From: Mesostigma viride
Lineage: Eukaryota > Streptophyta > Mesostigmatophyceae > Mesostigmatales > Mesostigmataceae
Reading direction: 5' to 3'
DNA length: 64,000 nucleotides
Assembly (NCBI GenBank): GCA_009746045.1
Contig: RPFO01000667.1
Location: 2,035,380-2,099,379, forward strand
In this document: in pieces, positions 3,577-50,197 of the stretch
Layout: the number at the start of each line of letters is the position of its first letter
Position numbering within the stretch: the stretch's first letter is position 1
The notes under the pieces: generated by a model
The model's database searches: none
What the model was told of the DNA's origin: nothing
What the model saw: the letters and a program-made list of their open reading frames with translations, nothing else
Made by a program: the position numbers and the translations under genes

Positions 3577-6306
3577 CAGACCACAGCCGGTAGGGTGTAG
3601 GGTGAGGGTGGTGCGTGAGCCAGGTATTTGGTACGCGTCGACTAACGCCCTGACATCTTGTGTGTGGGCTGTACAGGGGGACGCCGCGGAGGCGCTTCCC
3701 AGAGACCAGACTTCCGTCGGCGCCGTGGAGGCTGCTGACGCAGGATTCCGGGGTGCAGAGGGGAGTCCAGTGAGGGGGATTTGGTCGACATGGATATACC
3801 CGACGATCCGGAGGTCCCAGAACCGGAAGCGGGGGTAAGGACGCAGATAGCTCGCGGAGAGCCTGCGGTCCGAAGGGATGCACCAGGGGCCGGGGGCTCG
3901 AGAGATGGTGGCGGACAGACGGGGCCCTCCTCTAGTCGCGAGCGCCGGCAAGAAACCTCGTCAAGGCCTGGAGCTCCGGACGCGCGTACGTTGGAGCTGG
4001 TAAAGGAGCTGCACGAGGAGACGTTCAATCCTCGGGTGTTCTTGCGTGACTACGGTCGGAGGGGGAAGCCCTGGTGGAACGACGACGGCGTCGTCGTAAT
4101 CAAATGCCGTCGCACCTCCGCGCTGATTCTATCATGGCGCGAGTCGGTCCTGCGCAGATGGAGACTTTCCGAGGGTTCGTGAGGCGCAACGTGAGATTCC
4201 GGATCGAGACCCGCACGGCTGCGCGCAACGGTGGTGGTTGGGACCGACTGGGAGACACATGAGCGGGAATGCGCCTGTCACGGGTGCATGAACACGCTGG
4301 AGCGGGCCTGGCGTTCCCACGGCTCCTTCTCCTCTTACTTCCACCTCCAGTGCGAAAGCTGCTGGAATACCACTTCCCCCGGTATCTTCCGCCAGAAGGG
4401 GCGCTACGGGGAAATGCATGCGAGAAGGGCAGTATTCGTTGCGGCAGGCTCTGGATCGCATCGTGGCGATGGACGAGGAGGACCAGGATGATGGGAGTGG
4501 GTATGACTCCGTTCCGACGACGAATCCTCCACACCCCTCTCGTTCCCCTCCGCGGGATCCGCCTCTCGGGGTTCCCAGGGGAGCGGCGGAAGAAGCCGTC
4601 CTGTGCCTCGTTATAGGCGCCACCACCGGCGACGGGCTGGGGGCGACCTTCAGGGCGCGAGACGCGGAGTCTTCCAGGGCTACCGGATGGGGTGGGGCAG
4701 CCAAGCCGCTCCTCGACGTGTTCCGGAGGGGCCGGCACGTCGTCGCTCGCCATCCCCGCCCTCCGTTCGCGTTCCCACTCGGACTCCGGGACTGAGGTAC
4801 GCCCCGCTCGCCAAGCGTCACCACCATCGCCGACCAGAGGATCGGCAATGGGAGCGCACGTGGGGGTCGGCGGTGGAGTTGGAGCAAGAGCGGGAGAATC
4901 GGCGACGGCGAACGGATCCGACAGAGGCCGCGGTGGCCATGGCCGAACGGCCGGCTAGAGAGGAGCCGATTGATGAGGTTCCCGCTAGCAACCCGCCCGA
5001 TGCGGGCCAAGAAGAGACTACCTTTCATGTCTCCCTGGAGCCTCGCTCCCGAGTGGAAGAGGTCCCACTGGAGCCCCACTTCTTGGTCTCCTTGGAGCCT
5101 CGCCACCGGCCTGCCCAGGCTGAACCGTCGATGCCACGTCCTGCGGAGGGACCCAGCAGACCTACCACCTCGGACCGACATTCGCATCTTCCCGCGGAGG
5201 GACCGTGCTTACATACCTACCGTACGGAATGCCGCGGAGGGTCCCAGCGTGGCGGGTGTCATGGTGCCGGCGGAGCCCGTGGTTACCATTGAGACACTCG
5301 TGGCAGCGGTGCAATCAGGGCAGGGTCTCATACAGCGGATGTTGGACCAGCTCGGGCGCCAGGGCGATCATTCAGTCGCCACCTCAGTAGGCTACGAGGC
5401 CGCTTCCCGGGCAGCCTCACATGAGGAGTGGTCGTTGGGGGACTTCATACGAACCATTCCGGGGAGGACCGTAAGACACGGTGGGCCGGGGCCTCGCACG
5501 GAGAAGTTGTGTGTGGTGTTCGAGGGTCCCTTGTTCCCGGTCCCTCCTGGTATGCACCTGCCCGCCCCTTTGGTTTTTCAAGCGGGCCCTTGGTGCGCGG
5601 TTGACCGTGGTGCTTACTGGGAACAACTCGAGATCACCTTCTTCCCACAGGCGCCGCTGCCCTTGCCGCAACCTGACGACCTTCGTTTTCCCCGGACGGT
5701 GGGCAACACGGTGCGGTTCGGTACCGAGGAATGGTGGGATTGGAGGTATCAGGTGGATGGAGTGGGGCACGTGGTTACGCCGCCCAAGGTGGCCCCGGCG
5801 GAAGGGCGCGCCTTCCTGGATCGGGTGGTGCCGGACATTGTAGGGGCCCCCAGGGCAACCATCCTTGAGGATCACGTGCGCACCGAGGTTTTCATGATGG
5901 GGGTGAAGTTTGTTCGTGATCACCGCTGTGGGGTGGCGGATTGGTCGGCGCTGACCCTTCTCTTTACCCACCCCCAGTACCTCGCCGGGTTCCTGGCCAT
6001 GTGGCCCCGGGCACGTGGGTCGAGCTGTCCCGGTTGGGTCGGCAGAAGACGTCCCCATATCAGATCGCCTTCGAGGCGGACCTACGTGCGCATCCAGGGG
6101 TGATGACTCATATCATGACCCCGCGGGGCGACGGGCTCTCCTTGAGGCCCAGCAGCTGCGGCGGGCTACTAGCGGCGGACGCTAGAGTAAATAGTTTAGT
6201 TTCGGGATGGATAGCGGAGTCCAATCCCCAAGGTTTTGGCTACTACGTCAGGGTTGGGCTTGTGTATCGACCTCTAGAGGAACTGGCATTACTGACCTGC
6301 GGGTGA
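3577..6306 (+). pseudogene. Extra 3' ORF of element A (same family as 27979-30186), frameshifted
   Basis: Pieces in different frames match the extra ORF of element C in order. An N-terminal block with ETFNPRVFLRDYG lies near 4017-4060 and a Cys pair (CACHGC) near 4275. A Pro, Glu and Arg-rich middle follows. The C-terminal block runs 5420-6090, with GDFIRTIPGRTV, AGPWCAVDRGAYWE, HRCGVADWSALTLLF and a run of aromatic residues around MWP. At least four frame changes are needed. No transmembrane segment or signal peptide is evident, so an envelope role is not supported. The function is unknown; conservation among A, B, C and E is the only clue. The frame that closes the block ends at the stop at 6304-6306. 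Confidence 0.75.
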
Positions 6307-6333
6307 ACCGAGGTCGGGACATAGTACTCTCAT

Positions 6334-6338
6334 AGTAG
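6334..6338. repeat. Target-site duplication AGTAG of element B (left copy)
   Basis: AGTAG precedes the left LTR of B and recurs at 18284-18288 directly after the right LTR. Five bases is the usual length for Ty3/gypsy integrase. Confidence 0.95.
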
Positions 6339-8136: not shown

Positions 8137-8171
<35 letters not shown>

Positions 8172-11338: not shown

Positions 11339-11354
11339 TTGATGATATATTTAA

Positions 11355-15384: not shown

Positions 15385-17339
15385 TTCCCCTGGCTTCCGG
15401 GCGAGGGCGAGGCAGATATAGATGACAACCCCTGTGACCTCCTACGGGCGGTCGAGTTCATGGAGATCGCGGACCAGACAGCGGGAGTAGCATTTGGCGA
15501 CCCTTCCCCTACGGACGCACCAGTCGAGGCACAGTACACGCCAGAGTATTCGGCCTCCCCTGCAGCGTCCTCCTCCTCAGTGTCGGCTCCTTCCCCTGTC
15601 CCGTCTTCACCACGGTCGACCCGGCGCGCGTCGGTGGAGCCTACCCGTTTGGGCTCGGATCGTGAGCCTGATCCTCTCTCGGCGACTGTTTCTGCGATGC
15701 AGGCACAGATCCAGTCCCTGACCGCGGCTTTCGGGGCCTTCATGGCGGCCCAGGCGCATGCTCCAGCCACGCCAGGTGGGGTGTCTTTTGTATCTGTGCC
15801 CCCTTCCCCTTCGGTTGCCTCGGCGCCTACGGTTTCGCCCGCGCTGTGCGAGCCCTCGGTAGCTGCGGTTTCTTCTGTTGCTGCGGCTCCTACGCCTCCG
15901 GCTGTCTCTGCGCCTGCTACCGACGTACCTGCGCCTCTGCGCGAGTCTTCCGCCCCAGCGGCCGCGCCCGCCGTCGTCGCTTCCGGGCCCCCCACAGCGC
16001 CAGCGCCGCCATCGCGGGGTTTCTTTAGCGACCCGGGCGGTCTTCCCAGGCTTTGGGAGGGTGGTCCTCCGCAGAGGATTCCGGTGCCCGACTGGAGCTT
16101 GGATGGTAACCAGTCGTATGCCGGATTGCCTGTCCCTACGGGCCCTGTTTTCAACATGTGGCCTGGGGGTGCGCCGCCACCGGAGACCGGAGCGCCAGCT
16201 GCGGTGGCGGGTCCGTCGCGACCCCCTCCGGCAGCAGGTCCGACGCGACCTCCTGTTGTACCGGCGCCGTCTGCGTCTGTGCCGGTTCCTATACCCCTGC
16301 TTCGGCCCCTGTCCCTTCGGCCCCGCGGTCTTTGGCTGCGGTTGTTCGGGCCAGCGGCCCTGATCCTCGCGCCACCCGCGCTGCTGATTCCCTCCGGGAG
16401 TTGTCCGAGGGCGATCAGGATCGGGTCCCTTCTGTGGTGCATGCGACGCCGGAGTCGCGCGACACGCCTGTCCTTGGGTACGGTATGTCTGCGCACGCCT
16501 GCCGACAGTGTGACCTGCCGCGCGCCTCCGCCGAGCTTGCCATTTCGCCCATGTCCCTCGGGTTCTCCCAGGTGTGTCGGGCGCCGCGGGACCGTGGCCT
16601 ACCCATTGAGACTGATCGGCCTCCTTTCGATATGGTTATTGTAGCTGATCCTGTGTTCCAGGGCGAGATCCTGGTTCGGCGCGTTCTGTATCGCTGGGCT
16701 AGGCGTCACAATGACTTGGACACCTACGGTGGGTTCCAGTGGGCTTACCCTCCGCCTCTGGGCATTATGGCCTCAGATGCCCTTACGGTAGAGTTTCCTG
16801 TGGTGCCGGGTGCTACGTACAGCACGGTTCTCCAGCCCATCCTAGAGTGGGATGCCCGTCGTCCAGCGCCCATCCCGGGCCAGGGTCTGGACTCCCGTGG
16901 CCATCCTCCTCCTCGGGCTAGCGACTACCTCGAGACGTTCGGGTCGCGACAGTGTGCCCGTCGGTGGCGCTTCCGTGAGGTTCGGCACATCCGGATGTGG
17001 CCGTCTGACGTGGAGCCCCTGGTAGATCTGTTCTTCCCGACGGGTTTGCGCTCTCGGATCCGGTATCATCGCCTACTCCTGCGGGCTCTCTGCTTGATCG
17101 CGGTAGAGCCTTTCCTACGCCTCTTTGCCTGTGGTTTCCTGGACTGGGCCCGTGGCCAGGTCGTTCTTACGCAGCATAGGTATTACTGGGCCTTCCTGGG
17201 TCTTTTTCCTGATGGCGTGTGGGCCGATGTTTTCCTCACTGTAGATAGGCATGACAATGCCGATGATGTGGCCCACTACCATGCGTATCTGGATGTTCTG
17301 CTGGCCTCGCGTGGCACTTATCAGACTGATGGCAACTAG
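15385..17339 (+). pseudogene. Extra 3' ORF of element B, one frameshift
   Basis: An Ala, Pro and Ser-rich N-terminal half (15385 to about 16400), with a short heptad-like stretch near 15690 (SAMQAQIQSLTAAF), is followed in another frame by a folded-looking C-terminal half ending at a TAG at 17337-17339. The C-terminal half carries the pattern seen in A, C and E: CGFLDWARGQVVL, then an aromatic run around RYYWAFLGLFPDGVW, then a Tyr/Leu-rich end. Similarity to C is weak but collinear. No membrane segment or known domain is recognised. The function is unknown. Confidence 0.65.
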
Positions 17340-18283: not shown

Positions 18284-18288
18284 AGTAG

Positions 18289-19605: not shown

Positions 19606-20291
19606 TGTTGCGAACCCGACCCTTGGAACGGGCGCAACAATGGAATAAATTATGTATTTTGGCTTGTTGTCATAGTCCGTAGGACTTTGGGACTCATTTC
19701 GGGACTTAATTTGGGAATTGTCCCTTGGTCAGGACTTTTGTATGGAACTATGATAGTTTGTGTGATTCGGACCGGTTATTTTGGGCCTAGGTTGATGTAC
19801 GAGATCTTCTAGAGCTAGTAGGCCGGTGCAGTCGCGCCGCGCTGCGTACTTTATAGCTGGTTGAGATATTGTACCCATGCGTGGATTCTGTAGCCTGGCG
19901 AGGGTCGATGTCGACCCGAGGATCTTGTGTGGACTGCATGTTTCGGAATTCTCTGGAAGGCCGGCGCCATGTCGGCGCCCCTTGCCAGCCTGGTGGCAGA
20001 CCTAGGTGAAATTGGTCCGAGGACGAGAGTCTCGTCCTCTTGGTTCGGAATAAAGTGTGTGTTTTCACCTGTCTGAACCTGGGGCATAATTCCAACTGCA
20101 TTTGGTAGCTCCATCCTAAATGTGGATTGTGTAGATTAATGCAATATTAATCAACGCGAGCCGTAACAGGCCTAAAGCCACGCCTGTTCCGTTAATCCCA
20201 CTCCCAGAGAGTGGTCGTGGTTAGCCAAGAAACCGGGAATAACCTACCTTAACAATAGGATCTTTCGCACGACCCAGATGGGTTCGTTACA
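19606..20291 (+). repeat. 5' LTR of element C (686 bp)
   Basis: It starts TGTTGCGAACC and ends GTTCGTTACA. The head can fold through TGTTGCG and CGCAACA. AATAAA motifs occur near 19641 and in GGAATAAAG near 20047. Every stretch I compared with 30475-31160 was identical. Confidence 0.97.
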
Positions 20292-20292
20292 C

Positions 20293-20310
20293 TGGTTATC
20301 GGAGGTTAGG
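20293..20310 (+). promoter_or_regulatory. Probable primer-binding site of element C
   Basis: TGGTTATCGGAGGTTAGG starts two bases after the LTR, with the TGG expected for pairing with a tRNA CCA end. It resembles the site of element B (TGGTAGCGGAGG). The tRNA identity is not resolved. Confidence 0.6.
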
Positions 20311-20920
20311 TTAGGGTGGTTTAACATGGCGGCCCAGAGCCGGATTTAGCTTAGCAAAGGCCCAGAGCCGACAGGGTTCATCCCGCCCAGCAAAGGCGGT
20401 TGCCAGATCCCGGTGACGCTCAGGACAGCTATAGCCACAGCCGGAACGCCATCCAAGACCTCTTAACCCGTTGAGGGGTGTCTAAGGACGCTAGACGTCC
20501 ATGCAAGTGGTAAGATTTCCCTGATTTCCCTCTTGCTCCCCCCCCTGTCTTACCCACGCGCGTAGCAACGGGGTATATGTTTTATGTCGTGTCCGATTTC
20601 ATGTTCGTGACTGTTGGTACCCACGTTGCCCCAGAGGCCAACGTTCGTGAGCCGTGGGCGGACCCCCAGAGGGCAACGCTGCCTACGGCTCGAGGGTAGT
20701 CACCGGCTGGCCGTTGCCTTACTGTGTTGCCGGTGGCTGTACCTCAACGTTCTTCGTATTGTTTGTGAACGTTTTGTTTCTGCCTTGTGCTTCTCTCTCG
20801 CTGTGAGCACGTCACCTGCACGTAGAGGTATCCTGGGTGGGCTTTCCTCCCTTTCTTTCCCCTTCCTGCATTGCATGCTTGAACACCGTGTGATATTGCT
20901 TTATACCTAATCGGTAGTTC
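20311..20920 (+). other. Leader of element C, no gene seen
   Basis: About 600 bp of untranslated leader. The only frames are short and lack recognisable domains. A packaging signal would be expected here but cannot be located by eye. Confidence 0.6.
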
Positions 20921-21274
20921 ATGGGAACCTCCCGCAGCAGACGTAATAATGAAGGAGGATATAGGCGTATTAATCAAGGAGGTAGATCCCAATACCTATA
21001 CTACGCAGTAGCACATGACGGGGCCACAGGCCAACCAGGCATTTTCTATAGTTGGGCTGCGTGTAGCAATCATATTAAGGATAAGGTCTTACACCCAGCG
21101 TCGTTAGCTAGATGGCAGGGATTTAATACATTAGCTGAGGCAGATCAGTTTATTAGGGATAATATGCCCCTCCCAGAAGGGCTGCACCAGACTAGGCGTG
21201 GCACCCAGTTACCTGCACAGGATGTGTTGCATGCACTGGAGCAGCTTCACCTGGGCCCAGCCGCTAGGGCATAA
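20921..21274 (+). CDS. Small ORF with RNase H1/viroplasmin-type hybrid-binding domain
   Basis: A 117-residue protein encoded between leader and gag. Residues 26-80 show the RNase H1 N-terminal (Cauli_VI-type) pattern: YYAV at 27-30, PGIFYSWAAC at 39-48, then W65-Q-G-F-N-T-L-A-E-A at 65-74 and a closing F-I. In RNase H1 this fold grips RNA/DNA hybrids; a related domain occurs in the caulimovirus inclusion protein. Residues 1-24 are basic (RSRR, YRR), fitting nucleic-acid binding. The C-terminal 35 residues are Gln and Leu-rich without a known motif. It starts at an ATG and lies 193 bp upstream of gag. The role is inference: an accessory factor for reverse transcription or RNA handling. An equivalent was not found in B. 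Confidence 0.8.
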   Translation: MGTSRSRRNNEGGYRRINQGGRSQYLYYAVAHDGATGQPGIFYSWAACSNHIKDKVLHPASLARWQGFNTLAEADQFIRDNMPLPEGLHQTRRGTQLPAQDVLHALEQLHLGPAARA

Positions 21275-21467: not shown

Positions 21468-21809
21468 ATGCCCAAGAAGAAAAAGCAAGGTGGTGGTAAC
21501 ACGTCGCCCCCAGAGGGCCAGAACATTAGATCGTCCCCAGAGGACAATAGAGCAGGGCAGGAAGTATCCAGCACGTCCAGTCACGGTTCCAGAAGATCTA
21601 GCAAGTCCAGTAGGAGCTCCAGAGGCTCCCGGAGATCCGATGCAGCCGCTAGGGATACCGCAGAACGGCAGGCGACCCTGGAGTCGCAGCTAGAACAAGC
21701 TGCCTTAGGGTTTGATCAGCAACAGCAGTCGCCGCAGCGACAACAATTGTCTCAGCAGTCGCCGCAGCGACAGCCTCAGTCTCAGCAGTCTCCGCCGTCG
21801 CGACAGATG

Positions 21810-21840
<31 letters not shown>

Positions 21841-23708
21841 GACAGCAACAGCAGACGCAGCAGCAATCGCGACCGGTATTGACCCAGCATATGGGTAACT
21901 GGGACAGGGTACCTCCTACGCAGCGACCACCCTATGTGGAAGTCGTGCAGGAGGCTGATGAGGAGATAGAGGTCGCGGCTAGCCCGGTAGCTAGTTCGCC
22001 GTTTGCCCCTCCGGCTGAGTTCGTGCAATCCTCCCAATTGGGGGTAGGCCGCCCGCGCCTGACTCACCCTTGGGCAGGGCGTGGCCGCGGCGGGTCGGGG
22101 CTGGGTCATGGAAGGGATCCCCGTCGGGTCTCCTTTGGAGCGAACGAGAGCTGGTCGCGACCCCCGCCACGGGCGTTAGGGTCGGCGCACGTGCAGACCG
22201 ATCCTGAGGACGCGGACTACGATCCCCCGGGCCCCTTCCCCACGGTACCCACCTCCCTCCCCACAAGGAGCGCGCCCACCAACGCCAATTTCAGTCGGCT
22301 GCCCCTGGACGACCCCGGTTATGAGCATCCCACGTCCGTTCGCGTTCGGCGTGAGTCAGCCCCCTTTGCGTCACAGTGGGTGTCCGCTGACTACGCGCCC
22401 CGCCGAGAATCCGGCGACCTCGATCCCGAGCGTGAGGAGGACACCTTTGTGTCCCTACGTGGGCATGACCAGCCTGCAGGACGGGGCTCTCAACAGGAGA
22501 TGCGGGCGCGTCGGCACGAGCCCCTCACCTTTTCCAGCCCCGCGTACTGCAGCAAGGGCGGCCCCTTGCGTCCTGACCCTGTCAAGGCCCCGCCTATGCC
22601 AGATTTTAAGGCGGTGCCCAAGCTCCATGCGGGCATGACTCCCCGTGAGATCGACGAGTGGGCCCGTATGTGGCAACAGTTGTACACCGTCTGGTGTGAA
22701 CACCATGAGTGGCAGCTGGCCACCAAGGTTTTGATCCCCTACGTGGTGGTGAAGTGTATGGACCCATCAGTGGTCGGGATGCTTAACGTTGAGAGTGTGG
22801 CGGCCCAGTCATACCCGCAGACGGTCGAGGAACTGCACGAGCGCATCCGGCGCAAGCTCATCCCTCCCGGCTATCGACTGACCGAGCGGTTTGAGTTCGG
22901 CCGCCTACGTCAAGGCAACACTGACTTGGCGGAGTTCCTCACCACCTTTGACTCCTTTGCGGCGCGGCTGACCGGGGACCTGACGTGGACCGAGTACAAG
23001 ATTCGGTTTTTGGAGGCCATCCATCCTGACCTCCTCGCTGAGGTTAAGAAGCACTATGCCGAGGTTCCCTGGGACAAGCTTGACATCCACGCTGTCCAGC
23101 AGTACCTTCTACAGGTGGCCGACGTCGTCAAGCAGCCGCGCTACACCAGCACCCGCCGGTTCGCCTCATCCACGATGACACGCCGTGTCCACTTCACTGA
23201 GGTGGAACCCGCCCCGTCGGAGGGGGAGGAGTCCAATGACGACGAGCAGCCGGCTGCCCAACTGCACGCCATCGATGCGTCCAAGGCCCGCTGTTTCATG
23301 TGTCACGAGGTCGGGCACCTCAAGAAGGATTGTCCGCGCCTCAAGGCGCGCACCAGCACGGCGACGGAGGCCACCAAGGAGGCCCCCACGTTTTCTGGTC
23401 CCGCCTTTGAGAGGCGCCCAGCGCCGGCAGCGCGGGATGCTCGCCCGCGCAACGCAGGCGCGCGGGCTGCCAAGCTGCGCGACGCGCGCACGCAGCCCAA
23501 CCAGTTCCAGACACCCCGCTTCCCAGCGTCGTTCTCTCGGACAGTGCGCGAGCTCAATGAGATCCTGGCGCAGCAACAGGCGTCCGAGGCTGGAGGTGAC
23601 GAGTATGAGGCGCTCAACCCCGGCGACGACGACGACTCGGATGAGGGGGAAGGGGGGACCGGAAGGTCGGACGAGGCGGCCTCCCGGCCCCGCGATCCTC
23701 GCGCATAG
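21468..23708 (+). CDS. gag of element C
   Basis: A 746-residue capsid/nucleocapsid precursor. The N-terminus is basic (PKKKKQ). Residues about 80-140 are Gln-rich with CAG/CAA repeats. A long Arg and Pro-rich linker follows. The retrotransposon gag fold spans about 379-555 (from DFKAVPKLHAG through EFGRLRQGNTDLAEF). A CCHC zinc knuckle, CFMCHEVGHLKKDC, sits at 609-622. The C-terminus is Ala and Arg-rich, then acidic. It assembles the particle and packages element RNA. It ends with TAG at 23706-23708. The pol frame overlaps its last 20 codons in the -1 register, beginning after a TGA at 23642-23644. Confidence 0.93.
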
Positions 23709-26700
23709 TGCCCCTTCCCACAGGGGTAGAAGTAGGAGTAGAGTTAGTCAACCAGGTAGCACAGACGCCTGCACCAGATGTGGGCGCGGAGATAGCGTCA
23801 GTCAATAACGTAGATAGGACTGGCGGGCAGGCCCCAGAGGTCTCCCCGCTCTCTTCATATGCAGACGTGTCGGCGACCGAGGTCGACCACGTTTCAGCCA
23901 ATCATGTAGATAGATCTGGCGGGCAGGCCCCAGAGGCCCCCCCGTCCGCTGCCTCACCAAGCACCAGAACACTGCTAGTTTTCAGCGGCGGACTGGCCCT
24001 CCCTACCACCACACTTGACCCGTTTCTGAAGGAGAAGACGATCCTGGATGTTAAGTTTATGGTGGATACGGGGGCGACCACATCTTTTATCCATGAGGCC
24101 CTGGTGCGACGCGCTGGCTACACGATTCGACCGCACCCGACGCCCATCAACGTCCGGTATGCCGATGGTAACAAGCACCCGTCCCCTGGCCTCGTGGACC
24201 TCAAGGCGGTTGTCCAGGGCATACCAGTGGAGGTAACAGCCACAGTGGCGCCGCTGGGCGCAGCTGACATCATCCTGGGCGTTGATTGGCAGGACGCCCA
24301 GGACGTGACGATCAGTGTCAAGCGACGGGTGGTTTGGTTCCCTGATGGCTCCTTCTGGTGCCCACGGCACGAGTATCTGGCGCACGGCACCGAGGTGCAC
24401 AACGTTCAGCACGACGCGGGGCCCGAGAAGCCACGACGCCATGCTTCTCAGATGCTGATGAGCAGCAAGACGCTCGCGCGCAACCTGCAGAAGGGCAAGG
24501 AGTACTACATGTACCGCCTTGACTCTGTGCCCCTGCTTGAGGAGCTGCTGGAGATCGGCACCGACTTCACTGACGACGAGATCGCGCGCTACAACGCCAT
24601 CCTGGCCAAGCGGGAGAAGCTGTTCGACGAGTCTACACCGCAGTTTCCCCCGCCCCGTTCTGTGCTGCACCATATCCGCCTCAAGGAAGGCTTCGGGCCC
24701 ACCACGTCCCCGATGTACCGGATGGGGCCAGTCGAGCTGATGGAGCTCAAGAAGATCCTGATGGCCCTCCTTGAGCGTGGTCTGATTGAGCCCAGTAACA
24801 GCCCTTTCTCCGCTGGGGTACTCCTAGTGCCCAAGCCTGGGGGCAAGTGGCGGCTCGTCACCGACTACAGGAAGCTCAACGCGATCACTGTCAAGTCCAA
24901 GTACCCGCTCCCGCGCATTGATGACATCTTCAATCGAGTACAGGGCGCCACCTGCTTCACGGTGATCGACTGCGCCGATGGGTTTTGGCAGCTCCGCATC
25001 GCTGAAGAGGACTGTCACAAGACGGCCTTCAATACGCCATACGGACACTACCAGTTCCGTGTGGCGGCGATGGGGCTTTGCAACTCACCAGCCAGCTTCC
25101 AGATGCTCATGAACGACATCTTGCGGCCCGTCATGGGGACTGCACACCTGCCACAGGTATCCAGTGACCTGCGCGACCCTCGCAAGGGGGACAAGCCGCC
25201 CTGGTCCTGGAAACGCACTTGCGCTTTGGCCTATCTGGATGACATCCTGGTGTACTCCAAGACCTTCGAGGAGCACCTGGAGGACGTCGATATGGTCCTG
25301 CGCATTATGGAGGACGAGCATCTCTCGGCCCGCAGGGCTAAGGTCCGGGCGGGGCGCAGCGTCCCGTTCCTGGGCCACACGCTTTCAGCGGCAGGCGTGG
25401 CCACGGACCCGGAGAAGATCGCCTCTGTCCAACAGTGGCCAGCTCCGACCGACGTGAAGGGCGTGCGTAGCTTCCTGGGGATTGCGTCATACTATCGACG
25501 CTTCATCCCCCGGTTTGCCACGATCGCGTCGCCCATCAACGCTCTCCTCAAGAAGGGCGTATCCTTCGTCTGGTCGGCACAGTGCCAGCAGGCCTTTGAG
25601 GCCCTCAAGGCCAGTTTGACCGCGGCACCCGTGCTCGTGCTCCCAGACCCGTCCCTTCCTTTTGTGGTTGCGACGGATGCGAGCAAGGTGGCTATCGGCG
25701 GGGTCCTCTTGCAGGACCAAGGCAAGGGCTTGCAACCGGTTGAGTACATCTCCCGCACAATGATCCCCGCCGAGCGGAACTATCCGGTCCACCAGCAAGA
25801 GCTGTTGGCTGTGGTCTACTGTTGCCACACATGGCGCCACCACCTGTTGGGCGCGCAGTTTGATGTTGCAGTCAGCGAGACAGGGGACCTCGACCCCGCC
25901 CGTTTGATTATTCACACGGACCATAGGCCCCTGACCCACCTCTTGACGCAGCCAAATCTGACGCCCCGTCAGGCCAGGTGGATGGAGTACCTTTCCCAGT
26001 TTGCCCCTTTTAAGATCCAGTATGTGAAGGGTGCGGACAACGTGGTGCCCGACGCCCTCTCCCGTCGTGCTGACTACTGGTTCTATGAGGACATGGGGGT
26101 GCTCCATACCACCTGTGAGGAGGCGCCTGGCGCCCCGCTCTACGATGACCTCCCACGGTCGCCGCGGGCTCGCCACCTGTTTCACATGAGTCATACCACT
26201 CCGGATGCCTTGTCGCCCCCCGATGGCGACGACGACCAGCGCGTGGACGCGCGGTCCCCCGGGGAAGGGGAGGGGTCCCACACACGGGTTCCCCTTGGCG
26301 CTGTGGCTCAGGCTCTTTTTCATCTGGAACCTCTTGGATCCCCGGTGGTCGTGTCTGAGTACCTACACTCGGCGCTGGACCAACCGGAGGAGGAGGACGA
26401 GGCCGATGCGTATACGGTCACTTCCCCCCTGGAGATGCTGATCAGCCGCTTCACGGTTACCGAGCCGGCCGCCTTGGAGGTGATCAAGTCACACCCCAAG
26501 ATGATGGGCAGGCTCCCGTGCAAGTTCCAAGGGGGTCGCCTATACGTCATGGTGCGCCCGGACACGTGGCGCCTCTACATACCCGAGCTCTGTCGAGCAG
26601 CCTTGCTCCACGAGCTCCACGACTCCCTAGTCGGCGGTCATCAGGGCATTGGGCGGCTGCTACCAAGGGCACGTCGTCACTTCTACTGGCCTGGCATGAA

Positions 26701-27934
26701 GGACTACATTGCGGCCTATATACGCGAATGCCCGTCGTGCCAGATAGCCAAGTCCCAGAACACGGGTACTCAGGCTGTCCCAAAGACGCTACCTGATCCC
26801 CTGGGTCCCTGGGACTCGATCCAGATGGATTTCGTCGGCCCCTTTAAGAAGACCAAGAACGGCAACAGCAAGATCTTGGTGTTCGTGGACCGACTCACGC
26901 GCATGTGTCACCTGGCCCCCTGTCCGGCTGACCTCACGGCCGAGGGGTGTGCCAAACTGTACCTCAACCACGTCTTCCGGTTCCACGGGCTCAGCCGCCA
27001 GTTCATCTCGGACCGGGACACGCTCTTCACCGCCCGGTTCTGGCAGGAGTTCTTCGACTGCCTGGGAACCAAGGTGTCGCTAGGGACGGCTTATCACAGC
27101 TCGTCCTCCCATCTGGTGGAGCGACTCAACCGCACGGTACAGGAAACCATGCGCCATTACACCGACGAGGTGGGCAGCAACTGGGAGGAGTTGCTGTGCT
27201 TGGTGGAGTTCTCCCTGAACAACGCACCACAGGCAGCCCATGGCCTAACCCCGTTCTTTCTCAACACGGGAAGGCATCCGCTGACGCCGACCGACTTGCT
27301 GACGAGTCCGGCACTGGCGGAACCGGAGGTGCTGCGCACTACTCTGGCGGGCGTGAGCAGCCTGCTGGAAAAGATGCGCCAAGCTCACAACAGTGCGGTT
27401 AAAGGGTACCGGGCCGCTGCCGAGCGCAACATGGCTCGCGTGGAAGGCAAGCGGGACTCTAGAGCACCGGACATCGAGGTCGGGGACTGGGTCCTGGTAG
27501 AGGGACCCCAGCTCGGTCGATTCTCCCAGAAGGTGGAAGGGGAGCTCAAAACGAAGCTCCGGCCCATGTACCTGGGGCCCCACCAAGTGCTGGAGAAATG
27601 GGATGATGTCATGTTCAAGGTGGACGTGCCCATCTCATGGGGCACCGCAACAACCTTCCACCGCGACCAGCTCAAGCTGTACCACCAGAACTCGATCCAG
27701 GGTAGACTCAATCCCCCGGCTCCTGTGGAATACGATCCGGAGACAGGGGAACAGGAGGACGAGGTCGAGGAGATTGTCGCCCATCGCGATTTCGGGCGTG
27801 GTCGACAACGCCAATATCGGATCCGGTGGAAGTTCTCTCGATATGGGGCAGAGGCCTCTTGGCGGACGGAGAAGGAGCTCTCTGGCTGCAAGCGGTTGCT
27901 AGACGCGTACAAGAAGGTCCACAGGTTGCAATAG
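23645..27934 (+). CDS. pol of element C: protease, RT, RNase H, integrase, chromodomain
   Basis: Numbered from 23708, the frame has 1408 codons. Aspartic protease shows MVDTGATTSF at about 118-127. RT has MYRMGPVEL, then YLDD at 509-512. RNase H has VATDASK near 654-660. The integrase zinc region spans about 966-1015, and the core has D near 1040, D near 1102 and E near 1138. A GPY-like module (MYLGPHQVLEKWDD) lies near 1290 and a chromodomain at about 1347-1408. The first Met lies inside protease, so independent initiation would lose the active site. The frame is -1 to gag and open back to 23645, which favours a gag-pol frameshift in the 23645-23708 overlap. The chromodomain probably guides insertion toward particular chromatin. 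No inactivating change was seen. Confidence 0.95.
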   Translation, partial: GGRGDRKVGRGGLPAPRSSRIVPLPTGVEVGVELVNQVAQTPAPDVGAEIASVNNVDRTGGQAPEVSPLSSYADVSATEVDHVSANHVDRSGGQAPEAPPSAASPSTRTLLVFSGGLALPTTTLDPFLKEKTILDVKFMVDTGATTSFIHEALVRRAGYTIRPHPTPINVRYADGNKHPSPGLVDLKAVVQGIPVEVTATVAPLGAADIILGVDWQDAQDVTISVKRRVVWFPDGSFWCPRHEYLAHGTEVHNVQHDAGPEKPRRHASQMLMSSKTLARNLQKGKEYYMYRLDSVPLLEELLEIGTDFTDDEIARYNAILAKREKLFDESTPQFPPPRSVLHHIRLKEGFGPTTSPMYRMGPVELMELKKILMALLERGLIEPSNSPFSAGVLLVPKPGGKWRLVTDYRKLNAITVKSKYPLPRIDDIFNRVQGATCFTVIDCADGFWQLRIAEEDCHKTAFNTPYGHYQFRVAAMGLCNSPASFQMLMNDILRPVMGTAHLPQVSSDLRDPRKGDKPPWSWKRTCALAYLDDILVYSKTFEEHLEDVDMVLRIMEDEHLSARRAKVRAGRSVPFLGHTLSAAGVATDPEKIASVQQWPAPTDVKGVRSFLGIASYYRRFIPRFATIASPINALLKKGVSFVWSAQCQQAFEALKASLTAAPVLVLPDPSLPFVVATDASKVAIGGVLLQDQGKGLQPVEYISRTMIPAERNYPVHQQELLAVVYCCHTWRHHLLGAQFDVAVSETGDLDPARLIIHTDHRPLTHLLTQPNLTPRQARWMEYLSQFAPFKIQYVKGADNVVPDALSRRADYWFYEDMGVLHTTCEEAPGAPLYDDLPRSPRARHLFHMSHTTPDALSPPDGDDDQRVDARSPGEGEGSHTRVPLGAVAQALFHLEPLGSPVVVSEYLHSALDQPEEEDEADAYTVTSPLEMLISRFTVTEPAALEVIKSHPKMMGRLPCKFQGGRLYVMVRPDTWRLYIPELCRAALLHELHDSLVGGHQGIGRLLPRARRHFYWPGMKDYIAAYIRECPSCQIAKSQNTGTQAVPKTLPDPLGPWDSIQMDFVGPFKKTKNGNSKILVFVDRLTRMCHLAPCPADLTAEGCAKLYLNHVFRFHGLSRQFISDRDTLFTARFWQEFFDCLGTKVSLGTAYHSSSSHLVERLNRTVQETMRHYTDEVGSNWEELLCLVEFSLNNAPQAAHGLTPFFLNTGRHPLTPTDLLTSPALAEPEVLRTTLAGVSSLLEKMRQAHNSAVKGYRAAAERNMARVEGKRDSRAPDIEVGDWVLVEGPQLGRFSQKVEGELKTKLRPMYLGPHQVLEKWDDVMFKVDVPISWGTATTFHRDQLKLYHQNSIQGRLNPPAPVEYDPETGEQEDEVEEIVAHRDFGRGRQRQYRIRWKFSRYGAEASWRTEKELSGCKRLLDAYKKVHRLQ

Positions 27935-27988
27935 AGGTATGTACATACACTTAGAGGTATGTACATACACATAGAGGTATGTACATAC
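27932..27988 (+). repeat. Three tandem 20-bp palindromic repeats at the pol/extra-ORF junction
   Basis: TAGAGGTATGTACATACACT is repeated nearly three times, starting at the pol stop codon. Each unit contains the perfect palindrome GTATGTACATAC. The proposed start codon of the next ORF lies inside the third unit. Confidence 0.9.
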
Positions 27989-30186
27989 CACAGGTACACA
28001 GTACACTAGTCGGTATGACACACCGGTACTCACAGGTGTTGCCTCGCTGCTCGTGGTCATTCCTTGTACAACAGACGGGCTCCCCAGAGGAGACTCGATC
28101 CAGCCCCAGAGGCAGCCCCAGAGGCAGTGATTCCAGCAGTCCCTTGGTGCGGTTCACACCCCCAGCCTCCCCAGAGGAGCCGGCAGGGTTCGTGCCAACT
28201 TGGACCAGTTTTGGCAAGAGGCGACGGTCGGAAGACATGAAGGAGCAGGGGTCGGATATAGCCGCGACCGCCAACGAGAACAACCGTGAGACCTTTAATC
28301 CGCGGACGTTTCTGCCCGACTACGGCCAGGAGGGCGTGTTCTTGGCGCGTCGACGGCGCAGGCACGGCAAGGCCGATCAAGACTACCTGGCCTCCTCGGT
28401 TCTGGAGTGGCCCCGCGATCGACACGAGAAGTTCCGCAAATCCGTGCAAAGGCATTGCGGGTTCAAAGTCGAGACCCGGACGGCGATTCGAGGGAATGTG
28501 GCGGTAGGGACAGCTTGGGAGGACCACGCACCCAGCTGTGCCTGCGACCGTTGCGTGACTACGGTGTCGGCCCTCATGGCCTACCCACGCCTCATGTTCT
28601 TGCTCGTCGCACCGGCACGACGTCAGACCCTGCAGTGGGCCTACCGGGGTTTGCCGCCAGACGGGGCCTTACGGGGCCCGTTCTGCACCACCAACGGCCA
28701 GTACTCCCTTCGGCAGGCGCTGGACCGTATCGTGGAATTGGACGAGGCGGATGATCGCGGAGGGGAGGGCCCCGATGATGAGGAATACGGGAGTGAAGAC
28801 GACGACCTGTTTCCGCCGCGTCCGGCGCCCCGGGAACCTGCCCCCTCAGCCGGCAACGCCTCGCGCGACCCCCGCCGCCGTGAGAACTCGGGTGACCGCA
28901 GCTCACAGGACGCGTCCCGCTCCAGAGAGGCTTCCCAGGGTGTGGGTGTACGCCCGGGGGCGCGTGAGGAGGAAAGGTCCTTTCGGCGGACCTGGGACCA
29001 GGCAACGGCCCACCAACGACCACACTCGGGGTCGCGGTCGCCAAAGACGGCCCCAGAGGTCGTACCCTCGGCTGGTCGTGGCAAGGCGGTGGCGGACACG
29101 TCTACTGCACAGGCCCAACGTTCGACCCCAGAGGTCGCACCATCGGCTAATCGTGGCAAGTCTGTTGCGGACCCATCTACCGCGAAGACCCAACGATCGA
29201 CCCCAGAGGTCGCTCCGCCAGAAGCCAGTGGTACGGCTGTCCCCGGCCCGTCGTCCGTGCAGTCAACACGGTCGAATACTGAGGTAGAAATTGCTCAACC
29301 TGCGGGTCGCGGTCAGGTGCCAGAAGTTCAGGCGCTCGCGCCAGCAATTCCGGGCCCGCCGCCCTGTCACCAGGGGTTTGCGCCGGTTGTGCCATGGACG
29401 ATGGGGGACTACATCCGGCCGCTGCCCGGTCGCACTGTCACCTACGGGGGCAGACGCCCCCGCATGGAGATTTTATCGGTGGCTTGGCATCGGGACGCGG
29501 ACATCCAGCTGCGGGCTCCATACGAGTGTGGGGGCCATGCGCTAGCGTTTACTCCAGGGCCCTGGTGTTACAAGGACCGAGGGGCGTACATGGAATTGCT
29601 GAGAGTGGACCTGTATCCCCACATCCCCCACCGGGTGCCTCGGCAGATCACCCCTGGTGAGCCCTTTCCGTTCAGTGTGGATGGGGTGACGCGTTACGCC
29701 CCGGAGGGCGATCATTGGGATTACCATGTGGCGGGTTTCCCCCGTGTGGTGAAGCCCCCCAAGCTGGCTCCGAACGCTTTGGCGTTCCTGCACGGCGTCG
29801 CCCCCGACTTCATGGATGATCGCTTGGGCCCGCCGGCAACGGAGGTCGATCTGGGACAGGTGGCCACCGTGATGCTGGGTATGGGGGAAACATATGTGGC
29901 GGATTACCGCTGTGGGGTAGTGGACAGGAACGTCAAGTCCCTTCTGTTCACCTTCCCGGAGTACATGGCCGCCTTCCTCTCCATGTGGCCTCCCAACGCG
30001 TGGGACCGTTTGTCCCTGTCCGGACGCCGTGGCACTGGCAAGCCGGAGCAGTGGGCCTTCGAGGAGGATCTCCTGAGGTTCCCAGGGACTCGGGGCCCCC
30101 AGGCCACGGAGCACGGCGAGCGAGTCTATCGGTGGGCGTACCAGCAGCAGCAGATGGTGCGGGACAGGCGAGGCCATGGCCGCTGA
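27979..30186 (+). CDS. Extra 3' ORF of element C, unknown function
   Basis: An intact 735-codon frame 44 bp after pol. Residues 1-100 are Ser and Pro-rich. A block near 104-210 holds ETFNPRTFLPDYG, basic stretches and a Cys pair (CACDRC). Residues about 255-290 are acidic. About 340-460 hold repeats of an RSTPEVAP-type unit. The C-terminal domain (about 475-735) holds MGDYIRPLPGRTV, AFTPGPWCYKDRGAY and CGVVDRNVKSLLF near 645, then an aromatic FLSMWP run. The same blocks recur in A, B and E. No signal peptide, membrane span or viral fusion motif is visible. How it is translated is unclear: no -1 overlap with pol exists, so a spliced or internally initiated message is possible. The start could also be a later Met. 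Confidence 0.85.
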   Translation: MYIPQVHSTLVGMTHRYSQVLPRCSWSFLVQQTGSPEETRSSPRGSPRGSDSSSPLVRFTPPASPEEPAGFVPTWTSFGKRRRSEDMKEQGSDIAATANENNRETFNPRTFLPDYGQEGVFLARRRRRHGKADQDYLASSVLEWPRDRHEKFRKSVQRHCGFKVETRTAIRGNVAVGTAWEDHAPSCACDRCVTTVSALMAYPRLMFLLVAPARRQTLQWAYRGLPPDGALRGPFCTTNGQYSLRQALDRIVELDEADDRGGEGPDDEEYGSEDDDLFPPRPAPREPAPSAGNASRDPRRRENSGDRSSQDASRSREASQGVGVRPGAREEERSFRRTWDQATAHQRPHSGSRSPKTAPEVVPSAGRGKAVADTSTAQAQRSTPEVAPSANRGKSVADPSTAKTQRSTPEVAPPEASGTAVPGPSSVQSTRSNTEVEIAQPAGRGQVPEVQALAPAIPGPPPCHQGFAPVVPWTMGDYIRPLPGRTVTYGGRRPRMEILSVAWHRDADIQLRAPYECGGHALAFTPGPWCYKDRGAYMELLRVDLYPHIPHRVPRQITPGEPFPFSVDGVTRYAPEGDHWDYHVAGFPRVVKPPKLAPNALAFLHGVAPDFMDDRLGPPATEVDLGQVATVMLGMGETYVADYRCGVVDRNVKSLLFTFPEYMAAFLSMWPPNAWDRLSLSGRRGTGKPEQWAFEEDLLRFPGTRGPQATEHGERVYRWAYQQQQMVRDRRGHGR

Positions 30187-30474: not shown

Positions 30475-31160
30475 TGTTGCGAACCCGACCCTTGGAACGG
30501 GCGCAACAATGGAATAAATTATGTATTTTGGCTTGTTGTCATAGTCCGTAGGACTTTGGGACTCATTTCGGGACTTAATTTGGGAATTGTCCCTTGGTCA
30601 GGACTTTTGTATGGAACTATGATAGTTTGTGTGATTCGGACCGGTTATTTTGGGCCTAGGTTGATGTACGAGATCTTCTAGAGCTAGTAGGCCGGTGCAG
30701 TCGCGCCGCGCTGCGTACTTTATAGCTGGTTGAGATATTGTACCCATGCGTGGATTCTGTAGCCTGGCGAGGGTCGATGTCGACCCGAGGATCTTGTGTG
30801 GACTGCATGTTTCGGAATTCTCTGGAAGGCCGGCGCCATGTCGGCGCCCCTTGCCAGCCTGGTGGCAGACCTAGGTGAAATTGGTCCGAGGACGAGAGTC
30901 TCGTCCTCTTGGTTCGGAATAAAGTGTGTGTTTTCACCTGTCTGAACCTGGGGCATAATTCCAACTGCATTTGGTAGCTCCATCCTAAATGTGGATTGTG
31001 TAGATTAATGCAATATTAATCAACGCGAGCCGTAACAGGCCTAAAGCCACGCCTGTTCCGTTAATCCCACTCCCAGAGAGTGGTCGTGGTTAGCCAAGAA
31101 ACCGGGAATAACCTACCTTAACAATAGGATCTTTCGCACGACCCAGATGGGTTCGTTACA
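30475..31160 (+). repeat. 3' LTR of element C (686 bp)
   Basis: Same length as 19606-20291 and, by eye, the same sequence. It is followed by CTTAT at 31161-31165, matching the left flank at 19601-19605. Confidence 0.97.
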
Positions 31161-31165
31161 CTTAT

Positions 31166-34537: not shown

Positions 34538-34820
34538 ATTAATTAAGTAGACTCGTGCTCCCGTTGGGGAGTCACGGAGCATTAACCCCGATGGATGGAT
34601 GGATGGGTGCAAACAGTCCTACCGGTCTAATCTATCTACATCGGCTACATACTACATCTATCTAACAGCATTCTAACTACAACATCTAGGCAGCCGCACG
34701 CTGCCCTAGGGGAGCTATCTGGCATGCCTCCCACGGGATTGCACACGCGGGCGCTTCCCCACTGGGGGGGGCTCGTTGTCCTCTATGACCTGGGCCCACT
34801 TGGCCTTGTCCATCATCTTC
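34538..34820 (-). mobile_element. LINE family alpha, 3' end fragment
   Basis: Read on the minus strand it encodes the last residues of the alpha ORF (KMMDKAKWAQ and onward), then the 3' untranslated region with TAGACCGGTAGGACTG, four GGAT units and the terminal hairpin GCTCCGTGACTCCCC/GGGAGC, ending in a TAAT-type tail at 34538-34549. It abuts an opposite-strand alpha piece at 34821. Confidence 0.85.
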
Positions 34821-35785
34821 TCTCGAGGCCCGTGCAGTGGGGCTTGAGGTCAGCAAGAAGACAGAGGCCCTGGCGGTTGGGCTCACCAACTCAGCGCCGC
34901 CCCTCTATCTCCTAGACGGAGCCCTCTCGAGTCCCGTATCGGGACCGCGTCAAGCTGCTGGGCAGCCTGCTCCCTAGCTGCGAGGTCGATGTGGACCATC
35001 GCATCTCCCTCGCCTGGCACGCTTTACGCCAGTACCGGGCCCTGTGGCGCAAGCCCCTGGGCAAGATCGAGAAACAGGACCTGTTCAAGGTCCTCGTCCT
35101 TCCTGTTCTCACGTTACTATGGCGCCGAGACGTGGACCCTCACCGCCGACCTGGCCCGCAAGCTGGACGGCGCGGTCACCAGCATGCTGCGTTCCATTTT
35201 CAGAGTAGGATATGCTGCTCATGTCCGCAATGAGGACCTGTACCAGGGCATGCCCTATATCACCAGCACCATTAAGCAACGCCGCCTGCAGCTAGTACTT
35301 AGGGCACCTAGCTCGCACCAACCAGGTAGACACCTCACGTGGCCCCCCCGCAGGACTGCGACCAGCCCAGCCTGGCCGGCACCTCCTGACGTGGGCTGGG
35401 CCCAGTGATGTTAGACGCCGCAAGGCCCGCACCTTCAAAGAACAGCTAGTAGAGGACCTGGGGGGCCTAGGCCTCTCCGTGATTTGGAAGAAGATGATGG
35501 ACAAGGCCAAGTGGGCCCAGGTCATAGAGGACAACGAGCCCCCCCCAGTGGGGAAGCGCCCGCGTGTGCAATCCCGCGGGAGGCACGCCAGATAGCTCCC
35601 CCTAGGGCAGCGTGCGGCTGCCTAGATAGATGTTGTAGTTAGAATGCTGTTAGATAGATGTAGTATGTAGCCAATGTAGATAGATTAGACCGGTAGGAAT
35701 GTTTGCACCCATCCATCCATCCATCGGGGTTAATGCTCCGTGACTCCCCAACGGGAGCACGAGTCTAATTAATTAATTAATTAAT
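34821..35785 (+). mobile_element. LINE family alpha, C-terminal part and 3' end
   Basis: It starts inside the RT-derived coding region (LEARAVGLEVSKKTEALAVG near 34822) and continues with DVDHRISLAWHALRQYR, the alpha YGAETWTL region (interrupted by a small indel near 35115) and a basic C-terminus ending at TAG 35593-35595. The 3' untranslated region carries the same CCATCC repeats and hairpin as 34550-34640 in opposite orientation. The (TAAT)n tail occupies 35765-35785. Several frameshifts make it inactive. Confidence 0.85.
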
Positions 35786-38745
35786 CATCTTCTTCCAAAT
35801 CACAGAGAGGCCTAGGCCCCCCATGTCCTCTACTAGCTGTTCTTTGAAGGTGCGGGCCTTGCGGCGTCTAACATCACTGGGCCCAGCCCACGTCAGGAGG
35901 TGCCGGCCAGGCTGGGCTGGTCGCAGTCCTGCGGGGGGGCCACGTGAGGTGTCGACCTGGTTGGTGCGAGCTAGGTGCCCTACTAGCTGCAGGCGGCGTT
36001 GCTTAATGGTGCTGGTGATATAGGGCATGCCCTGGTACAGGTCCTCATTGCGGACATGAGCAGCATATCCTACTCTGAAAATGGAACGCAGCATGCTGGT
36101 GACCGCGCCGTCCAGCTTGCGGGCCAGGTCGGCGGTGAGGGTCCACGTCTCGGCCCCATACGTGAGAACAGGAAGGACGAGGACCTTGAACAGGTCCTGT
36201 TTCTCGATCTTGCCCAGGGGCTTGCGCCACAGGGCCCGGTACTGGCGTAAAGCGTGCCAGGCGAGGGAGATGCGATGGTCCACATCAACCTCGCAGCTGG
36301 GGAGCAGGCTGCCTAGCAGCTTAACGCGGTCCCGATACAGGACTCGAGAGCCGTCTAGGAGATAGAGGGGCGGCGGTGAGTTGGTGAGCCCAACCGCCAG
36401 GGCCTCTGTCTTCTTGCTGACCTCAAGCCCCGGCTGCACGGGCCTCAAGAGCCAGGCAGTCAAGCCATGTCTGCACGTGCTCAGTGTCCTCGAAGAGGGT
36501 GGTGTCGTCTGCGTAGATGATGTCTGCCAGCCGAATCTCCGTGTCCGCACCGCCATGCCAGAATTTGTTAGCAACCTGCACTCCTGGTTCCCTGCCCACG
36601 ATGCGGGCAAATCGCTTGCGCGCCTGAATCATTACGTATTCGACAACAGTAATGAACAGGTAAGGCGACAGCACGCAGCCCTGCGACACACCCTTCTGTA
36701 AAGGGCATGGGGGCGTTGTCCCGTAAGAAGTGCGCACCGAAGTGGTGGACCCTTCATACAGGTTGCGGATGACAGCAATCAGGGGGCGGGGGATCCGGAA
36801 CAACTCGAGGATGTCCCAAAGCGCAGGCCAGAAAACCGAATCGAGGGCTTTGATGAAGTCTGGACACCAGCACAAGGTGCAAAGGGGACTCACCAGGCTG
36901 AAGGCGTTGCAGTTCCTCCACCAGTCGGCGAGTAGCGAAGAGCGCCTGTACTGCGTTGCGACCTGAACGGAAGCCGTGCTGAGTCTCGCTGAGGTGACCG
37001 TCCAGGGCCGTGCGCAGGCGCCGGTTCAGGATGAGCCGCATAAGAAGCTTGAGTGAGGGGGGCACTTTGAATGCACACCCCTCTGTAGTTGCCGGGGTCG
37101 GTGAGGCGACCCCTTGTTCTTGTACAGCATCGTGCGAAAACTGTGTTGCCAGGCCGCAGGAGGTGGTTGCGACGACAGCAGAAGGCGGTTGCAGATGTCC
37201 CGGAAGAGCAGCATAACACCTGTGTCCTCGAATTCGGCTGCAAGTTTTACAACTGCGGCCGGAATCTCGTCAGAGCCGGTGGCTGCGTCATAATGCAGGC
37301 GCTGGACCGCCTCCGTGACCTCGCGAGAGGTGAAAGGAGGCATGTCAGACGGGTCGCCAAGTGGGCCGACCAGCGGGGGGACTAGGTAGTCCGCCGCTGA
37401 CCTAGGCGGGGCCGGGGGCCCAGCGGGGCCGGCCAGGGCGGCCGGGCGGGCGGCGGCGGCTAAGAGCAGGGGTGGGGGCGGCGCAGGGGTCCCCACGACC
37501 TCGGCCGTGGCCGTGGCCCAGGTACGAAGCCGCTTGGCTGGGGCGCCGGGGACGGCATGGCGTCGGGGCCGGCCGAGGCCGTCCGGGTGGGCCGAGGCGC
37601 TTGTACCAGAACCAGGCCCCCTTGCCGTCGTGCTTCTGCTGGCAGCTGCGCAGGTCCTTGACCATCTGCTGAGCATCTGCCTTCTCAGCCTGCTCGTAGG
37701 CGGCCCTCAGAGCTGCTTGCAGCCCAGGTTTGGCGATCGGATCTCTGTTGCGGCGGAGCATCTGCCTGGCGGCGACCACTGTCGGTGCGTGACGGTGGAC
37801 AGCAAGCTGCCGGCGCGGAGGCAAGGTGGGGAGGGTGCGGGCAGCCAGGCGATACTTGGCGGCGACACCACGGAGGATCACTGAAATATCAGTCCCCCGG
37901 CGGCGGAATGGCGTGTAACTGCTGTCGGCTGCCCCGGGCGTCGAATACGGCCAGGAAATCATCCCTGTGCGACATAGCGGCCTGCTCTGCTGCTGACATC
38001 TTGTCGGCATCCTTCAGCACAATCCGGAGCACCTTCAGATCTGGCTGAGGTGCCAGCTGTCGCGACGGTTTTACCCCAGGAAACCGCAATCGGATGCGAG
38101 CGAGCACGAGACGATGATCAGATTCCACCGTTCTGACAGAATCGTGCAGGACGCGAGCATCGACAACTGAGGGGCGCTGAGCCCGACGTACGCAGACATA
38201 ATAATCAAGGCACACCACCCGATCCGACGGCCCAAAAAAGGTGGCCAGCTGCTCAGCGGGGCGTGCGAAAGAAGCATGGCATGCAACCAGCGCAGATTCT
38301 GCCAGCAGATTCGCAAATAAAGGCGTGTTACCGTTGGCTGTCGTGTTGGTTGGGGAATACTGAGCGCCCCCAGTGCCAACTGGCAGCGTGGCGTTGGCGT
38401 CGAGCAGCATAACCAGGAAGTGCCGAGCTGGGATGTTGGCCTCCTCCTTGAGGGCGTCGAAGAAGGCCTCACGTTCCGCCTGAGCTCGACCCGCATGTGG
38501 TGCATATCCCGCGATAACGGTTAGCGCGTGGTGTGAATGGCCCGGCTCAGTGGCCGAAAAAGTGGCCACTAGCACACGCGGGGACCGCAGCACGATGGAC
38601 TGGAGCTGCTCTGATGCTGCCGGCGAGCACAAGAGGCCCACACCACCTTGGCCCGGCGCGTCGCCGCCACCATAGTGGAACCGCCAGCCCGCACGCAGGT
38701 CGTCGACCAGCAGACCGTTGACCCCGTGCTGAGGCAGTATTGTCT
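35777..38745 (-). mobile_element. LINE family alpha, nearly full coding length, frameshifted
   Basis: The minus strand encodes, in order, an endonuclease/exonuclease/phosphatase-type domain (38745 down to about 37890: VNGLLVDDLRAGWRFH, LDANATLP, VESDHRLVLARI), a linker (38010-37400), and reverse transcriptase (FTSREVTEAVQRLHYDAATG near 37330, KGVSQGCVLSPYLF near 36690, YADD at 36504-36515). The alpha C-terminal region carries YGAETWTL (near 36160) and ends at KKMI next to the TTAA tract. Frame changes occur near 38000, 37450, 37100, 36900 and 36500. The usual alpha 3' untranslated region is missing, so this copy was cut or rearranged at its 3' end. An endonuclease that nicks DNA plus RT is the standard LINE machinery. 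Confidence 0.9.
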
Positions 38746-41138: not shown

Positions 41139-41143
41139 CACAT

Positions 41144-49925: not shown

Positions 49926-50197
49926 ATAGTGTTCATCGTTGTGGGGTGGTGGATAAGTCGGCTTTGACCCTGATGTTCACTCACCCTCAGTACTTCGCCG
50001 GATTCATGGCCATGTGGCCCGCGGGCACGTGGGTGGAGCTCTCTCGGGTCGGCCGACAGAAGGTGTCACCCTACCAGGTGGCCTTCGAGAGAGACCTGCG
50101 CTCGCATCCCGGTAGTCTGATTCGGATTTCGGAATATGACGCCACTGGGTCGTCAGGCCCTTATCGCGGCCCAGCAACAACGGCGCACCAACAATGA
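49926..50197 (+). pseudogene. C-terminal fragment of the extra 3' ORF, element E
   Basis: HRCGVVDKSALTLMFTHPQY near 49938, then FAGFMAMWPAGTWVELSRVG, then a tail to the stop at 50195-50197. It is closest to element A and shows the intact version of the part that is frameshifted there. The upstream part of element E is lost at the junction with the LINE fragment. Confidence 0.85.

Follow-up and report, generated by a model that had tools for sequence, protein, structure and literature searches.

A diverged extra gene exchanged between similar chromovirus backbones in the alga Mesostigma viride

Extra genes are a known feature of LTR retrotransposons, and many of them have no assigned function. 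As outlined in a review, plant LTR retrotransposons include elements with sense ORFs between pol and the LTR, some of them spliced, among them barley Bagy-2, for whose env-like gene splicing has been reported (PMC7264820). The account of Retand describes antisense aORFs with a TRP28 domain in the interval between pol and the 3′ LTR (PMC11963269). The extra ORF of Mesostigma viride described here resembles the Bagy-2-type env-like genes in lying in the sense direction between pol and the 3′ LTR, but it differs in having no clear membrane span, in its chromovirus backbone, in belonging to another protein family and in the strong exchange of its versions; moreover, its splicing is predicted, whereas that of Bagy-2 has been reported. 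With the Retand aORFs it shares the pol-3′ LTR interval, the want of an assigned function and retention within a lineage, but those ORFs are antisense and belong to a non-chromovirus, whereas the present ORF runs in the sense direction and does not match TRP28. LTR retrotransposons of bdelloid rotifers have reportedly captured additional ORFs as well, in a different host. Retroviral envelopes are likewise said to recombine, so that a 3′ gene is exchanged between related backbones, but that case concerns vertebrate envelope genes and the present one an unrelated protein in an algal retrotransposon. In open titles and abstract openings of the literature on extra ORFs and LTR recombination, we found no account of this ORF.

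The ORF belongs to element C, one of several related elements (A, B, C and E) in a window of 64,000 nucleotides, by which we mean the whole stretch of DNA analysed. The 5′ LTR (19606..20293, +) and 3′ LTR (30475..31162, +) of C are identical at 688/688 aligned bases, and the element is flanked by matching 5-mers, CTTAT. Its gag (21468..23708, +) yields weak Retrotrans_gag and zinc-knuckle matches below the Pfam cut-offs, while in pol (23708..27934, +) Pfam recognises protease, RT, RNase H, integrase zinc and core, and SH3 domains, followed by a chromodomain-like end that matches the chromodomain of Swi6 at 1.6e-5; element A gives a Pfam Chromo match at 1.1e-7. With the order PR-RT-RH-IN and a C-terminal chromodomain, as judged by domain matches, C is a young Ty3/gypsy chromovirus of M. 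viride.

The extra ORF (P0001; 27979..30186, +) lies on the gag/pol strand between pol and the 3′ LTR, beginning 44 bases past the pol stop and ending 288 bases short of the LTR. Its ATG at 27979, its stop codon at 30184-30186 and its length of 735 codons are as given in the first-pass annotation. We searched the M. viride assembly (439.9 Mb, 2243 contigs) and obtained at least 62 matches to P0001 (61 scored of 5263 candidates). Among the matches listed, 20, the window's own included, are 100% identical (rounded) over residues 1-735; one, S98, is at 98% over the same residues; 11, the S76 subfamily, are at 76%, begin at residue 12, end at 726 or 735 and each contain a single TGA; five, the S47 subfamily, are at 47%; and the remainder are partial. 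A EukProt gene model labelled Mesvir1 (P0002), present in the genome at 100% over 774 residues, retrieved at least 89 matches (58 scored of 18878 candidates); in this branch, 16 of the 17 listed matches of at least 700 residues, at 57-100% identity, have no stop, and the seventeenth contains three TGA codons. Inverted pairs of the extra ORF on contigs C1646 (1499345-1506319) and C2094 (2457-9431) look identical, with the same 2.6 kb between them, and some listed matches, such as these pairs, may reflect duplicated contigs. A rearranged copy (L015) has two N-domain stretches in opposite orientation next to a C-type C-domain. Upstream of gag, C has a leader ORF of 117 codons (20921-21271, +) that matches Pfam Cauli_VI (E 2.8e-8), the RNase H1 N-terminal/viroplasmin domain; S76 and S47 have closely similar versions of this stretch, that of S76 with a gap of one base.

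The encoded protein can be divided into three parts. An N-terminal domain of approximately residues 90-270 (28246..28788, +), delimited by alignments of C, S98, S76, S47, P0002 and pieces of A, carries an H-x3-C-x-C-x2-C motif that would be compatible with metal binding. The linker that follows (residues 271-472; 28789..29394, +) is rich in P, A, S and R and includes a period-75 tandem repeat (29051-29213), and the C-terminal domain (residues 473-735; 29395..30183, +) is the part most diverged between subfamilies. NG86 counts on codon alignments of C with S76, S47 and S98 reveal that the ORF is coding and under purifying selection, with dN/dS about 0.2 between subfamilies. For the C-domain, C and S76 (amino acid identity 0.62) give a dS of 1.38, a dN of 0.29 and a dN/dS of 0.21; C and S47 (identity 0.50) give a dN/dS of 0.21 at a dS of 2.07, close to saturation; and C and S98 give 0.32 on few changes. 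The N-domain ratios are 0.26 against S76 and 0.18 against S47, and those of the linker 0.33 and 0.36. A ratio near 1, which would have spoken against the function proposed in the first-pass annotation, appears only in the linker of C and S98 (1.0), a nearly identical pair with few changes. These ratios, together with 16 of 17 long P0002-branch copies being free of stops, thus uphold a function. A chance ORF or a pseudogene is ruled out by dN/dS and the many stop-free copies. A single-frame piece of A also displays a third-position excess against C (codon fractions 0.39, 0.40 and 0.63) and a weaker one against S47 (0.47, 0.48 and 0.58). The dN/dS values, averaged over the sequence and not site-wise, give no sign of positive selection.

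Versions of this ORF that diverged long ago sit in far more similar LTR-gag-pol backbones, a pattern for which these sequence comparisons demand recombination. The dS of the integrase-chromodomain stretch is 0.033 between C and S76 and 0.19 between C and S47, so that neighbouring genes differ from the C-domain roughly fortyfold and tenfold, respectively, and mutation alone is insufficient. LTR, gag and pol of the three subfamilies share 76-100% DNA identity per 250-base bin. Between C and S76, these bins reach 95-98% in the LTR (82% at the LTR end), 76-95% in the leader, 84-99% in gag, 90-100% in pol (97-100% from RT onward) and 94-98% in the N-domain of the ORF, fall to 63-72% in the C-domain, and return to 96% before the LTR. 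The comparison of C with S47, a composite of two different copies (5′ part from L028, 3′ part from L012), yields 95-98% in the LTR, 81-100% in leader and gag, 90-98% in pol and 56-70% in the ORF, and the borders of the divergent stretch fall near 28010 and 30200. Both comparisons put the greatest divergence in the extra ORF, though the leader and the gag N-terminus (76-90% between C and S76) also fall short of the similarity of pol. Divergence between C and S76 is graded, with a dS of 0.11 in the N-domain, 0.44 in the linker and 1.38 in the C-domain. It is mainly the C-terminal half that differs, and since the N-domains of C and S76 are 95% identical, exchange of the whole ORF is visible only with S47.

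The versions are discrete. At 12 further loci, the C-domain is of the S76 type in eight (97-100%) and of the C type in three at about 99% (one of them, L023, over 216 bases only) and in one at 88%, with no intermediate between the two types. A DNA search with the pol end of C (40 scored of 480 candidates) led to 30 loci that were cut out and that stop before the C-domain; the N-domain is present in 27 of them (22 at 98.9-100%, five at 95.7-97.9%) and absent from L047, L053 and L057. Three versions occur on the C backbone among the matches listed, which are filled by the closest copies. This cassette-like exchange, like the probable spliced start described below, is an addition to the first-pass annotation. 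L047 and L053 are element copies without about C 28380-30030, and, because their adjoining 2.7 kb are 99.7% identical, the assembly probably contains the same insertion twice; we therefore dropped them as proof that the ORF is dispensable.

The extra protein is probably translated from a spliced mRNA that joins a leader ATG to an exon at 28075, a prediction based on an in-phase donor and acceptor and on conservation of the frame from the acceptor onward. In the leader of C, two further codons separate a start codon from a site resembling a splice donor, ATG CAA GTG/GTAAGA (20501..20515, +); the same sequence recurs in S47 (L028:2906), and S76 has ATG AGC GAG/GTAAGA (L024:3188). This ATG and its donor (20501/20510) are in phase with a predicted acceptor at 28074/28075 (AG at 28073-28074), which reads CAACAG/ACGGGCTCCCC in C, CAACAG/GCGTACTCCCC in S76 and CTGTGCAG/ACGGGCTCCCC in S47, and the predicted coding exon would extend over 28075..30186 (+), from residue 33 onward. 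Between the pol stop and 28074, alignment gaps break the frame (20 and 2 bases in S76; 2, 5 and 3 in S47), multiples of three being 0/2 and 1/3, respectively. From 28075 onward, 10/10 gaps in S76 and 13/17 in S47 are multiples of three, and the four off-frame S47 gaps (35, 4, 1 and 2), drawn from a base-wise alignment, may offset each other. The single TGA of the S76 copies lies upstream of the acceptor. Therefore, the frame of 735 codons stands, but its first 32 codons, along which the frame is not kept against S76 and S47, are probably non-coding. Base shuffles of the leader of C produce a mean of 0.0155 such ATG-donor sites, to be read with the donor having been chosen post hoc among six GTRAG leader sites and with a chance of one in three for the phase match. 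The start may differ in the P0002 branch, because the P0002 gene model begins with its own M and a frame of A is opened by an ATG at 3790.

Three palindromes, GTATGTACATAC, at 27937, 27957 and 27977 (27937..27988, +) lie between the pol stop and the predicted acceptor. They are the only ones in the window, with up to one mismatch allowed and 0.04 expected, and each fetched locus with an intact junction has two or three copies (two in S76 and S47). Here the palindromes belong to three 20-base repeats.

The statement that the ORF belongs to no recognised family holds for Pfam, PHROG and PDB sequence families. P0001 has no Pfam match; the best Pfam hit of six relatives has an E of 0.008 for one member (DUF6226; others 0.19 and 0.31), their best PHROG hit is 0.19 for one member, and a PDB profile search with the family returned none up to E 10. 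Searches of about 5.8 billion proteins, in which the best 7974 and 7977 candidates by common words were scored (1064 in the region search), matched only P0002 and P0003, two Mesostigma gene models, and no relative outside Mesostigma; scans of viral and prokaryote contigs gave no confirmed relative. Among these top-scored candidates, the match to a host gene family that would point to capture of a host gene was looked for and did not appear, and such a capture is not supported. Comparison with the gag and pol of the element likewise gave no homology (best E 1.6). A model of the C-domain improved from a pLDDT of 33 with four alignment rows to 70 (pTM 0.71) with eight, once S76, S47, the piece of B and a second piece of A had been added; the remaining four models of that second run scored 54-59. 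In the model, the first half is rich in beta structure and the second is helical, and fold searches with it against solved structures gave no confident match.

We tentatively favour a reading in which the product of the ORF is an accessory protein of two domains, encoded in the env position, probably expressed from a spliced mRNA, with an exchangeable specificity domain and a trans-acting role in counter-defence against a host factor. The leader start codon would be spliced to the exon at 28075, as in retroviral env genes. RT template switching between co-packaged RNAs is a route of recombination, by which the ORF versions could have been placed onto similar backbones. The H/C-rich N-terminal domain would supply a shared activity and the C-terminal domain the specificity, and several versions would be maintained by selection. 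The likeliest target would be a host factor that varies and holds the element in check, with the protein acting against it in trans; sequence-based silencing alone would not be expected to favour alteration of the ORF only, given the much greater similarity that LTR, gag and pol retain. That this is a new family, possibly a new fold, encoded by a spliced env-position gene whose C-domain is exchanged under selection for diversity in an intracellular arms race of retroelements with a host restriction system is conceivable, if rather doubtful.

A serious rival to this counter-defence reading, albeit an unlikely one, is neutral mosaicism, in which the ORF has a constant role and a successful LTR-gag-pol backbone spread by recombination, leaving the ORF versions in place. 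The average dN/dS and the weaker similarity of leader and gag N-terminus between C and S76 suit it, and recombination between copies of one LTR family during transposition bursts has reportedly been described. Even exchange, however, does not favour borders that hug the ORF as they do between C and S47, nor a divergence that, between C and S76, is mainly in the C-terminal half, two pairs in all. It is improbable that the protein serves self-recognition or copy-number control by binding its own subfamily's RNA, DNA or Gag and limiting or licensing that subfamily, in analogy to phage immunity repressors. The discrete versions at the 12 loci would fit, and the palindromes, which sit right ahead of the ORF and at no other place in the window, would be a candidate operator, but C, S76 and S47 have one and the same palindrome despite their different proteins, and divergence of the LTRs does not follow that of the ORF.

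An envelope-like surface or cell-exit protein, whose choice of receptor would explain the variable versions, seems improbable as well. Mesostigma cells are flagellates that bear scales and have no wall, so that cell-to-cell transfer is conceivable, and the sense orientation between pol and the 3′ LTR, the predicted splicing and the strongest divergence of the element being in this gene are env-like traits. A crude hydropathy scan found no clear membrane span, its top 19-residue window (residues 192-210) being borderline at 1.63, and the C-rich motif of the N-domain looks intracellular. The earlier remark that this is not an obvious env gene agrees with the scan as far as a clear span is concerned, but the borderline window may speak against it, as do position, predicted splicing and variability. 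Very improbable is a structural or chaperone protein of the particle, such as a second nucleocapsid-like factor; it would account for H-x3-C-x-C-x2-C and the disordered basic linker, but similarity to gag or pol is missing, and such a protein should evolve with gag, whose similarity between subfamilies far exceeds that of the ORF.

One genome with many long and divergent versions, some in similar backbones, makes the function of the extra gene testable by comparison of versions. It also raises the question of whether envelope-less retroelements vary a 3′ gene in the way that retroviruses vary env. Should the protein act on a host factor, this would suggest that an early-branching streptophyte alga has a restriction system.

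Within the window, collinear relatives had been claimed in A, B and E. Those in A and E are clear by tblastn in the window: A 5429-6007 matches the extra ORF at 40% over 205 columns (E 2e-32), with additional N-terminal pieces between 3862 and 4507, and E 49934-50116 at 48% (E 1e-13). The B match (17106-17330) reaches an E of 0.054 only. Kinship of B's ORF is nevertheless supported, as the most distant and weakest of the three, by its collinear position and by a profile of six relatives against its frame (P 8.4e-5 over 60 columns, one comparison). The idea of four related copies stands, with the corrections that the relative in A (3790..6338, +) is broken in frame in several places and that in E (49928..50197, +) is only a fragment of the C-terminal end, 48% identical to C and closer to P0002 (87-91%). 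The relative in B resembles the C-terminal domain (16158..17339, +), and two open frames overlap at its position. The LTRs of B are identical at 575/576 bases, with AGTAG on both flanks; B is, by sequence, a young insertion at the 3′ end of A, where A-E similarity stops at 6338, and the remainder of A probably lies beyond 18315, although A-E identity jumps from 73% to 93% there. Element B (6338-18284) has pol in several frames and 2.7 kb without a pol match, and is without an integrase-core match; tblastn in the window found no match in it to C pol residues 999-1408. B looks like a recently moved, non-autonomous element. For the 5′ end of A, the 9.5 kb left of the window contain no gag or pol match. 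Elsewhere, the window includes a large inverted repeat (34538-36451) with arms of about 0.9 kb that are 96% alike and related pieces at 49.7 kb and 57.0 kb, and a further LTR-like pair (41141-49257) of 790 bases with 4 mismatches.
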